This document shows, piece after piece, positions 434-23,300 of a stretch of DNA of 23,717 nucleotides. The translations under genes were made by a program, and so were the position numbers. The notes below the pieces were generated by a model. It saw only the letters and a list, made by a program, of their open reading frames with translations, did no database searches and had not been told where the DNA came from. Numbering within the stretch: the first letter of the stretch is position 1; each line of letters opens with the position of its first letter. The stretch lies in the IMG/VR virus record IMGVR_UViG_3300020410_000063, positions 1 to 23,717 of that record; one strand, given 5' to 3'. Source of the DNA: a virus.

Positions 434-463
434 ATTGTAAGCCCTAGTTGAGCATTGTTTCAA
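434..463 (-). promoter_or_regulatory. Candidate host sigma-70 promoter 3
   Basis: On the minus strand TTGAAA (463-458) is followed after 18 nt by TACAAT (439-434), each one mismatch from consensus. Transcription would start near 427, exactly at the outer edge of the long inverted repeat 344-427. The -35 box lies within a dyad, AGTTGA (446-451) and TCAACT (460-465), which could bind a regulator. Confidence 0.45.
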
Positions 464-481
464 CTCATCTTAACATTCTGT

Positions 482-516
482 AACAATATATAACTACATA
501 GTAGTATATTATTGTT
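482..516. repeat. 35-nt imperfect palindrome
   Basis: The dyad is centred on base 499. The outer 7-bp arms AACAATA (482-488) and TATTGTT (510-516) and the inner CTAC/GTAG block with its flanking A-T pair (493-505) are symmetric, with four mismatched positions between. It overlaps the -10 region of promoter 2, so it could be an operator, a replication element or part of a terminal structure. Confidence 0.5.
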
Positions 517-533
517 GTCTCACTGTGTCTCAA
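503..533 (-). promoter_or_regulatory. Candidate host sigma-70 promoter 2
   Basis: On the minus strand TTGAGA (533-528) is followed after 19 nt by TATACT (508-503); an overlapping TAATAT lies 16 nt from the -35. Each box is one mismatch from consensus, but the spacing is on the long side. The -10 lies inside the 482-516 palindrome. Confidence 0.4.
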
Positions 534-540
534 GCTGGCA

Positions 541-793
541 ACAGATCGCTTCTCTCACGCGTCACGTATGTCGCGAATGTTTAGCTCCCGCTCGGCTACG
601 CCTCGCTCCCACGACCAGCAGTGCTGTCTCTTGGACAGTACTACATTGCTTGACAACCATTGGTATCACTGGGTTGTGGCGAGCGGTAGCGAGCCGTTGG
701 ACTCGCATTGGACACGCATACGCGATCAATTAACGCGTGCGTGCCTGTGCGTTAGAAGAGCACCCCTCCATGGGGGATCCTGCCGGCGTCGAC
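541..793. other. GC-rich, palindrome-dense island
   Basis: The stretch is about 58% G+C by hand count, well above its surroundings. It holds an 8-bp stem with one G-T pair (621-628 with 634-641, 5-nt loop), a 6-bp stem (653-658 with 672-677), a CCCC/GGGG hairpin (763-775), and two related GC motifs in roughly opposite orientation (about 584-610 and 679-696). Six-base palindromes are crowded here: ACGCGT twice, TCGCGA, AGTACT, CCATGG, GGATCC, GCCGGC and GTCGAC. No tRNA or conserved RNA was recognised. Its function is unknown. Confidence 0.5.
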
Positions 794-795
794 TA

Positions 796-825
796 TATAT
801 AATACACCTGACAAATTTCTGTCAA
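796..825 (-). promoter_or_regulatory. Candidate host sigma-70 promoter 1
   Basis: On the minus strand a perfect TTGACA (825-820) is followed after 17 nt by TTATAT (802-797), or after 18 nt by TATATA (801-796). It begins four bases after the talC stop and points toward the KTSC-like gene. An inverted repeat, TGACA (809-813) with TGTCA (820-824), overlaps the -35 box and could be an operator or chance. T7-like phages use host RNA polymerase promoters of this kind at the left genome end. Confidence 0.6.
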
Positions 826-6696: not shown

Positions 6697-7258
6697 TGTT
6701 TTTTAATAGTGATTGAATAGGTACTACATCGGAGCATATGTGATATACACGTGACCCGGGTAGCAGGGTAAAGCCTTTCTGTTGTAGCTCGGCACATTTG
6801 AGCGCACGAACTAACTCGAAGTCTAATTTGTTTTTTTGTATCTGACTTTCTGCCATGCGTTCACATTGCTTAGTCAGATCTCTATTAAGGGGAACCATAA
6901 AATTAATTTGAAAACCCCAGTTTTCTGAAATTACATAACCATCTTCTGTCTGTGGTTCTGTATCGTTGCCCATATAAAATGGACTAAATGTCATCGTGCT
7001 GCCATTGCAAGATATGTTGCTACCAAAGGCTTGTCGACTAGGAGCTCCATTATTTTGAAATTGTACAGCTTGATTTGTGACATTTCCCGTCGCGGCTGCC
7101 ACGGGGTTGCTATTATTATTGGTATCTCCTTCTGCAAGTACAGGACTTACTGAGAGAATACAGAGAGCGATGTAGTAGTAGAGTTTATTGTATAGTTTCT
7201 TGTAAAGTCTATCTGCTCTACTAAGCCTGCTGCTCTTGTTGTGGTTTCTAAGTTCCAC
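6680..7258 (-). CDS. Exported cysteine-containing protein conserved in cyanophages
   Basis: The product has a basic N-terminus, a hydrophobic segment (LYYYIALCILSVSPVLA, near residues 26-42) followed by a likely signal-peptidase site before EGD, and an exported domain of about 150 residues. That domain holds four cysteines, in ISCNG, KQCER, LKCAEL and HICSD, which could form two disulfides in the periplasm. NPVAAATGNVTNQAVQFQNN and TFSPFYMGN are segments I recall from proteins of other marine cyanophages, of unknown function. The earliest start is a GTG that overlaps the previous signal-peptide gene by 112 nt; a non-standard start nearer the hydrophobic segment cannot be excluded. Host-envelope or lysis involvement is inferred from export and neighbours. 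Confidence 0.75.
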   Translation of the reverse strand: MELRNHNKSSRLSRADRLYKKLYNKLYYYIALCILSVSPVLAEGDTNNNSNPVAAATGNVTNQAVQFQNNGAPSRQAFGSNISCNGSTMTFSPFYMGNDTEPQTEDGYVISENWGFQINFMVPLNRDLTKQCERMAESQIQKNKLDFELVRALKCAELQQKGFTLLPGSRVYHICSDVVPIQSLLKNNVSNP

Positions 7259-20340: not shown

Positions 20341-23300
20341 GTTGATAAAATTTAGTATTGTAAGCTCCTTCCCATGTCAGGTTATGAATAGTAGCTGGAG
20401 CTGGGTGTGTTGATTTAATTGTTATTGATACGTTTTTATTAGAATCATATATAGGTACTTCTCTTATTATATTATCATCTACTACTGATGAAGTGTTAGC
20501 TACATATTGGTCAGCACCTGTTAATTCAAATAATTCAGTATATGAAACTCTACCTGTTCTGTTTAATGTAGTTTCATATAACCCTACCGGACCAAATCCT
20601 AACTTAGCTCTATGCAATACAAGACTAGATCTAGTATCAGCTCTAAAGTTTTCTCCTTCTCTAGTTACATAGTAAAAAGTAGGTAAGTCAATTTGCATAG
20701 TAAATTGATGACCAATTAAAAATGTTTGACTAGACCAATTACCATCTATAGATAAAGTTCCATCATTGTTATTTGTTATTAGTCCATATCTACCTAATTG
20801 ATCTCCAGAGTCAACATCATATGCTGCTAATTGATTTGTGCTTTCAATACCAGTAGGTTTAGCAAATGTTGTTTTATTTGTTGTAGCACTGTAAGTATTA
20901 GATCCTGTTGTTACTGACATTAAATGGTCTAAATGTACTCTATTTTCTGCAATAGCAAAAGTATTAGAATCCATCTTAATACTATATTTAAGTAACTGAT
21001 CTTTATTACTTGCACCATTTCTTACAACTACGTATAAATTATCATCTTGCATACAATGGTATTGAATTGTTCCAGTCAATGTCCACTTAAACCAAGCTGC
21101 TAACTTTCTTTCTCTAATACTGTCAAAATATCTATAACCGTACAGTGTAGATGTACCTTCTTCACTAAAAAATATAACTGAGTTTTCTCTAGAGTTAGAT
21201 ATAAGTTTTAAATCTTTTTCAAATAATCTAGCAACTACTGCACTCTGTTCTATAACCTCTGGTTCACCTTCTCTTTGTACCTGTGCCATCTCAAAAAATC
21301 TTGAGAACTTACCGGCATTATCTAAGAACCCGACAGTAGTACCAAGAGAGATAGGATTTGTAGCAAAGTTAAAATTGTAAGTAGCGAGAGCATTGATTTT
21401 AGCGGTAGTTGGGCTGAACACGTCACTATCTGTAGTGAGCATAAATTGTTGATTTTTAGAAAATAATAATAAACCTGTGTTTACCTGTATGCCATCATAA
21501 ATAATAGCAGGATATTCTGAACTAGCTGCTATGTCTATTGGGTCACTAGCTATAAGTTGTATAGCTGACTTAGCAAAGAAGTTAGTAAAGTCTCCCGGAC
21601 GAGATAACACTATATTTTCATCAGCAAGTATTGCAAATCTGTTTCTAAAAAACAACATTTTACTAATACCTTTACCTATAAATGAAGGTTCAGGGTTAGT
21701 AACATCATCACCTACTATGGCATCATCCCATTGAGGGACAGAATATTGTGTTCCGGAAATAGTGTAATTAGAACCGTCTAGTTCAGATAATCTAAAATTA
21801 CCGTCAGCAGTTCTAATCAAAAGTAGAGGCATTTTAGATTTTTTAAATTCAATTAATCTACCCGGTTTCGCACACTCTTCCCATGTACCCTCACCATCTC
21901 TACCATTATTTCCAAAAAATTTAACAAAATGATTATCCTCATCAGCAACACTATTAATAACTTCTACAACCATTCCATCTTTGCACTGAGAGGGTAAATC
22001 GCCTACATCGTTAACTTTACTAGCAATAACGTTTAACAGCTCTCCTACGGGCGTAGAGGCGTTGAATACACTGGTTCTTTTTATATGTAAACCTGTACCG
22101 ATTGTAGTTATATCACTGTCAGCTATATTACCGTCTGCAACGATAGATGCTCTAATATCACCAAGAATACTCTCAGCAGTAATAGTCGTCTCCGTGTCAA
22201 ATGGTGTAGGTTGTGGTCTAACTAGGGCAAGATTTGCTTGAGCTTTAGATGTACTGATAGTGTCTATTGTAACCTTATAATAAGCATCTTTCATCCATAC
22301 ATAAAAGAAATCACCTTGCAACCAACCTTCTCCACCATGTAGTAAATCGTGGGTAACTGTATATCTTGCTTGATATGTAACGTTAGATCCTGAACCAAAA
22401 GGTACTGATTGACCAGTAGTGGCTATACGAAAGTATAAGTTTTTCCTACCAGTTTGATTTATTTCTGAAGAGTTAACGTTACCTGATGTTGTTCCTGAGT
22501 AACTAGAAGTGTAAGTAAATGTAGTTGAACTAGGTACAGTTGCAATACTTTTAAATTCATCTGTACCATTACCAGTAAGAATATCAAAATACATTTGTGT
22601 TCCTGCTGATAATCCATGTGGTGTAGCTGTAGTAACAGTTACGGTACTACCACTTCTAGAGTAAGTCCCTCCAAAAGCTTTTTTATGAATGCTTACATTA
22701 TATGTATAATTAACATCAGACCGATTTCCGTTTGCAAGAGTACCACCAGTAGCTGCTTCATCAACTAATTCTTTATTACTGTCAATACTAAATATACGTG
22801 TACCTACATTAGGTGCAAATGAATCTCTACCGTCTCCAGCAGACTCGCCACATCTATTTTGGTTAGCTCCTCTATCAGCATGTGCTTGCATCTTATTATT
22901 TGAATCACAGTAGCTGTTACTTGAAGAAACTTGAGACACATTGATTCTTGTAGCTGTAGTCACTGTAGTGAAATGACTACTTTGAGTACCATCTTGGTCA
23001 AATATATTTAATGAGTACTGTTTTGAATAAGATATTTTTTTTAACTCGACAAAAATTTCTTTGCCAAAATTTCCAAGAGGTTCTGTAGTAGTGTCCATTT
23101 CTGTAATAATGGATCTATTATTAAGGTATGTAAAATCGTTTAAAGTTAGTGTTTGTAAATCTTCGTCATTTGTGTGCATCAAATAATTATCTTTTACAGT
23201 AACATTACTTGTGCTAATACTTCCACTTGCTGTATCTTCAATTCTAAATGTATTAATATCTACTACTTGTGTTATAGAATAAAGACCATCTGTAGCTCCA

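Follow-up and report, generated by a model that had tools for sequence, protein, structure and literature searches.

A predicted genome-end junction with one conserved host-type promoter element and a structured leader in a T7-like marine cyanophage

Genome setting of the talC–KTSC gap

The window analysed here is the entire IMG/VR record IMGVR_UViG_3300020410_000063 (23,717 bp). Read on the minus strand, it covers the late half of a T7-like genome, running from the tail genes through the large terminase gene to talC, which is followed by a gap and one small gene (Table 1). The nearest isolate is Prochlorococcus phage P-GSP1 (HQ332140), with 90.6% identity over the shared part, and P-SSP7 comes second at 73.9%. 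T7 gene order and close isolate relatives place the virus among the T7-like cyanopodoviruses (Autographiviridae). In P-SSP7, talC is also the last gene, and the virion ends have been determined experimentally, revealing a 206-bp direct terminal repeat whose ends had been collapsed by assemblers into a false circle (Sabehi and Lindell 2012, PMC3350473). The talC–KTSC gap of the window matches the arrangement of this genome-end region. A sequence-only reading of the window had taken it for a talC-bearing cyanophage with a T7-like left end, and both the gene order and the relationship to P-GSP1 and P-SSP7 bear this out. No tRNA or tmRNA was found in the window.

The label KTSC-like that the same reading gave to the small gene is weakly supported. 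The encoded protein matches phrog_7365, but its match to Pfam KTSC is weak (E = 0.0013) and below the cut-off, as is PF13619 in four homologues. The protein is 91% identical in P-GSP1. For comparative analysis of the gap we used P-GSP1, P-SSP7, Syn5, S-TIP37, S-SBP1 and 59 IMG/VR loci.

Table 1. Features of the talC–KTSC gap and its flanking genes in the window, followed by tRNA-like elements in related genomes
Feature	Position	Strand	Basis or remark
Small KTSC-like protein gene (102 aa), first of the left end	8–316	−	phrog_7365, E = 8e-31
Leader hairpin, about 35 bp, 5′-terminal from predicted transcript start (about 427)	343–428	−	Fold and covariation
Site 3 −10 element TACAAT, sole conserved early promoter	434–439	−	TAnRMT in relatives
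Site 3 −35-like TTGAAA, not conserved	458–463	−	Best −35 in relatives 3 to 6 of 6
Site 3, TTGAAA-18-TACAAT	463–458, 439–434	−	Direct sequence reading
Conserved word TGTTACAGAATGTTAAGA (18 bp), between palindrome and promoter	468–485	−	Single copy
AT-rich imperfect palindrome beside right cut	482–516	−	Inverted repeat I3; holds site 2 −10 (508–503)
Site 2, TTGAGA-19-TATACT	533–528, 508–503	−	Direct sequence reading
Predicted direct terminal repeat, 255 bp	547–801	−	Boundaries 802/801 and 547/546 (AGCG^ATCTGT), by homology
Short GC hairpin ATCCCCCATGGAGGGGT, just within predicted repeat	762–778	−	Read directly; no U-run after it
Site 1, TTGACA-17-TTATAT	825–820, 802–797	−	Direct sequence reading
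Genome-end motif TTTTGACAGAAATTTGTCAGG, including site 1 TTGACA	807–827	−	Single copy in window
talC	829–1473	−	PF00923, E = 6.5e-50; phrog_440; last gene in P-SSP7
tRNA-like element, P-GSP1 (L115)	~12630		Just after KTSC gene
tRNA-like elements, P-SSP7 (L116)	~630, ~1019, ~2578
tRNA-like elements, L107	35300, 35994
tRNA-like elements, L108	6711, 7365
tRNA-like elements, L105	8605, 8821
tRNA-like element, L110	39632
tRNA-like elements, IMG loci L025, L027, L098

Three promoter-like hexamer pairs

The sequence-only reading had proposed three tandem host-type promoters in the gap. The three minus-strand hexamer pairs on which it relied are all present where it placed them and point in the same direction. 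The TTATAT of site 1 agrees with TATAAT at only three of six positions, the A of position 2 not among them. The spacer of site 2, at 19 nt, is beyond the usual 16–18. Dinucleotide shuffles contain 0.68 ± 0.80 promoter-like sites per 512 bp compared with the three observed (P(≥3) = 0.025). Elsewhere in the window, 7% of 512-bp minus-strand bins also hold three such sites, and the first 20 kb contain 35 promoter-like sites, fewer than the 59.6 of shuffles. The excess over chance is thus mild, and conservation must decide. Comparison with the relatives shows that the three pairs are three different things.

Site 1 belongs to a genome-end motif

Both the isolates and the IMG/VR relatives have a motif of the form TTTTGRCARAAAT... 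after their last gene, and the TTGACA of site 1 (at 825) forms part of its conserved core, TTTTGRCA. In P-SSP7, Syn5, S-TIP37 and S-SBP1 the direct terminal repeat starts exactly 22 nt past the G of this core; the P-SSP7 ends were checked against a paper (PMC3350473), and those of the other three phages are as deposited in their records. Applying the 22-nt offset to the window puts the predicted left cut at 802/801, within the −10 proposed for site 1, so that the left end, once injected, would be without site 1. Transcription starting from site 1 at the right end would run off the molecule within 255 bp. The most plausible role for site 1 is that of a packaging or end-processing signal.

The right boundary of the repeat reads AAGCG^ACCTGTTGC in P-SSP7, CGCG^ATCTGT in S-TIP37 and S-SBP1, and ^ATCTGT in Syn5, where ^ is the boundary. 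The window has AAGCG^ATCTGTTGCC at 547/546, and most relatives contain the right-cut word. In the assembled junction, a single predicted repeat copy is flanked by conserved cut signals. Terminal repeats measure 206 bp in P-SSP7 (experimental, PMC3350473), 237 bp in Syn5, 150 bp in S-TIP37 and 180 bp in S-SBP1. With the 22-nt end motif, genome ends can be predicted in cyanopodovirus assemblies with collapsed repeats, a problem raised earlier (PMC3350473).

Two further observations concern the ends. Nearly all relatives have a C-run/G-run hairpin at the same place as the short GC hairpin of the window. In the P-GSP1 record, some 345 bp are present at both record ends (1–345 and 44590–44932), inside gp34-region genes, which looks like an uncut circular-assembly overlap and not a virion terminal repeat.

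Site 2 lies in a variable palindrome

The −10 of site 2 falls within an AT-rich palindrome. Relatives have an AACA...TGTT palindrome at the same place with different arms, for example AACAATACTATGTATTGTT, AACAGTACTATGTACTGTT and AACATAGTATTACTATGTAATACAATGTT, such that the sequence is altered and the form retained. The segment with site 2 is absent from P-GSP1, and the palindrome has no clear counterpart in P-SSP7. Site 2 scores 7–10 of 12 in relatives, where hexamers and spacings differ. Folding of the window palindrome as DNA is not significant by itself (z = −1.1). On this comparison, site 2 is not conserved, and its hexamers are by-products of some versions of the palindrome. Most close relatives also retain the 18-bp word that follows it.

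In P-SSP7, a different palindrome, CCCCTACGTATACAGGGG, occurs twice, at 6853 (RNA polymerase gene) and at 43820 (right after the terminase gene), and TTACACACTCATC likewise recurs. These repeats are possible phage-polymerase signals.

Site 3 retains a −10 element

Of 38 non-redundant leaders, 37 have a TAnRMT −10 placed 41–47 nt ahead of the hairpin core, compared with a chance expectation of about 22% per leader region. Its information content is 1.6 bits per column versus 0.4–0.5 upstream, a figure biased upward by the choice of the hexamer by pattern. Where the window has TACAAT, the IMG/VR relatives have TATACT, TACAAT, TAGAAT or TAGACT, and among isolates P-GSP1 has TAGACT, P-SSP7 TAGAAT, P-SSP2 TATAAT, and S-SBP1 and S-RIP2 TATACT; in S-TIP37 the hairpin is present without a clear −10. 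A separated −10 of this type is typical of host sigma factors. Site 3 is likely to be an early host-type promoter whose −10 is strong and whose −35 is loose, from which we infer that host RNA polymerase would start at about 427.

Conservation of the hexamers, the check that the sequence-only reading had named, is thus seen for the −10 of site 3 and not for the other two sites. The first gene does appear to have at least one host-type promoter aimed at it; three are not supported.

The predicted leader is a covarying hairpin

Downstream of site 3 the sequence folds into a long hairpin (minimum free energy −36.6 kcal/mol, z = −6.1; z of −3.7 to −7.1 in seven isolates). The 47 leaders have 31–42 pairs, with the stem beginning 0–8 nt after the −10, which would put the 5′ end of the message at or within the stem. 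A MAFFT and RNAalifold consensus was poor owing to the variable arm lengths, and a fitted covariance model, built from 21 sequences, performed better. In the alignment tested, of 26 sense sequences, standard pairs fill 89% of the pair cells, compared with 43–55% when the partners are slid. Compensatory changes affect 23 of the 35 pairs (5–10 when slid), and double changes in register number 103 (12–29 when slid). Isolates outside the model behave alike, with 41 double changes (3–9 when slid). The outer arms pair as GAGTTG/CAACTC, AGGTTG/CAACCT, GACTGA/TCAGTC, GTCTGG/CCAGAC or CTCTTC/GAAGAG. Pairing is therefore maintained by compensatory changes in excess of the in-alignment controls, as expected of a conserved structured RNA, across Prochlorococcus and Synechococcus podoviruses.

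The model search located a single copy of the leader per genome, always at the left end, for P-GSP1, P-SSP2, P-SSP7, S-SBP1, S-CBP3 and, weakly, S-RIP2; in a smaller search S-TIP37 matched with E = 1. The first of these searches did not find the leader in NATL1A-7, P-SSP10, 9515-10a, S-RIP1, S-B28, Syn5 or S-CBP1. A second IMG/VR pattern scan, for the Synechococcus form, returned one contig. Against Rfam, the window gave no match at the gathering threshold and only weak, chance-level matches.

The sense RNA strand is the more stable in 18 of the 26 sequences and the antisense in 8, a modest bias, and G-U occurs at 8 pair positions and A-C at none. Because the model behind the pair counts was itself fitted to the sense strand, these biases support an RNA role short of proving it. 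An intrinsic terminator was ruled out, as the stem has no U-run after it. The first 85–90 nt or so of the early message are thus predicted to form a deeply conserved hairpin that is absent from Rfam.

Other RNA-like elements occur in the related genomes. Many cyanopodoviruses have tRNA-like elements in the gaps between their early genes, most of them immediately ahead of a start codon. These elements have an acceptor-like stem and a T-arm (GGTTCRANTCC), and their stems covary (Table 1). They are called neither as tRNAs nor by Rfam. A strict search finds 1–2 per genome versus 0.1–0.4 in shuffled genomes, and they are possible RNase P/Z processing sites. Glutamine-II riboswitch aptamers, a known Rfam family, lie upstream of capsid genes in P-GSP1 (40269–40323) and P-SSP7 (20522–20575).

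Interpretation of the gap

We consider it probable (about 0.75) that in the gap the two ends of the genome of a T7-like cyanophage near P-GSP1 meet, with one collapsed repeat copy, one conserved promoter and a structured leader, and that it is not an A1–A3 array. Along the minus strand, talC would be followed by the end motif with site 1, the predicted 255-bp repeat, the right-end cut, the AT-rich palindrome with site 2, one host-type promoter with the conserved −10 of site 3, a transcript start near 427, the hairpin of about 35 bp and the first gene. On the injected left end, host RNA polymerase would start at about 427 and produce a message sealed at its 5′ end that continues into the KTSC-like gene.

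The array that the sequence-only reading proposed, with three tandem host promoters as in T7 A1–A3 all firing early into the first gene, draws on the existence of three co-directional hexamer pairs in a T7-like genome and on the 2.5% of shuffles that reach three sites. Instead of several strong tandem host promoters inside a left terminal repeat, we find one of three sites conserved and one lying across the predicted end; with site 1 part of the end motif and cut by the predicted terminus, and site 2 missing from P-GSP1, its place in relatives taken by other palindromes, we regard the array as very improbable. We think it likewise very improbable that the phage's own single-subunit RNA polymerase uses the conserved block as a promoter or origin, in place of a host promoter with a leader. 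Parts of the block are indeed conserved in sequence, and in T7 a phage promoter lies close to the left end, but the separated −10 is of host type, the leader and the 18-bp word are each single copy per genome, and the window has no Syn5-type promoter with up to three mismatches to the consensus. On the last two grounds we rejected the leader and the word as phage-polymerase promoters.

The leader hairpin and the palindrome could instead act as DNA, for example as cruciforms or as hairpin primers when concatemers are processed, the repeat is duplicated or replication starts, and the promoter would lie between them only by chance. Both elements adjoin the terminal repeat, which T7-like phages have to duplicate, inverted repeats fold on either strand, and the palindrome keeps its form despite changed arms. 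Against such a role stand the tight spacing between the −10 and the leader stem and the occurrence of G-U but not A-C pairs in the sense RNA, as does the position of the P-SSP7 hairpin, about 120 bp beyond the end of the repeat. We therefore think a DNA role unlikely.

Returning to an RNA role for the leader, a paired 5′ end usually resists decay of the RNase E type, and RNase E rises in MED4 infected by P-SSP7, so that 5′ protection would be useful. The most likely function is that the paired end shields the earliest mRNA from 5′-end-dependent decay (RNase E type), or that it serves as a processing or regulatory structure, or both; it might alternatively be an RNase III processing signal or control translation. 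Going further, we tentatively suggest, at somewhat less than even odds, a new RNA family in which the earliest transcript of T7-like marine cyanophages is sealed at its 5′ end in a covarying hairpin of about 35 bp that protects or times the mRNA while host RNA is degraded. If this is true, the leader, together with the tRNA-like elements near the early genes of relatives, would put the fate of the early operon under RNA control. This conserved RNA without an Rfam entry, which the sequence-only reading did not mention, is in our view the most interesting part of the locus. The analysis provides testable coordinates for the start of infection in very abundant ocean viruses, namely one promoter and one RNA structure in place of three promoters.

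Comparison with known systems

The left end of T7 has a direct terminal repeat followed by host-type early transcription (A1–A3) into small early genes. The window resembles it in the predicted repeat and in the host-type early transcription that would follow, but has one conserved promoter in place of three, and its transcript is predicted to open with a long hairpin. P-SSP7 shares with the window a terminal talC, a direct terminal repeat and an unannotated left leader, and the end motif and right-cut word match; it differs in the length of the repeat (206 bp versus the predicted 255 bp) and in the position of the hairpin, about 300 nt before the KTSC-like ORF in P-SSP7 and directly before it in the window. 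The report on the P-SSP7 ends (PMC3350473) does not describe the promoter, the hairpin or the end motif. P-GSP1 lacks the site 2 segment and has TAGACT as the site 3 −10 with a weak −35, but has the same end motif and right cut as the window and an identical leader core.
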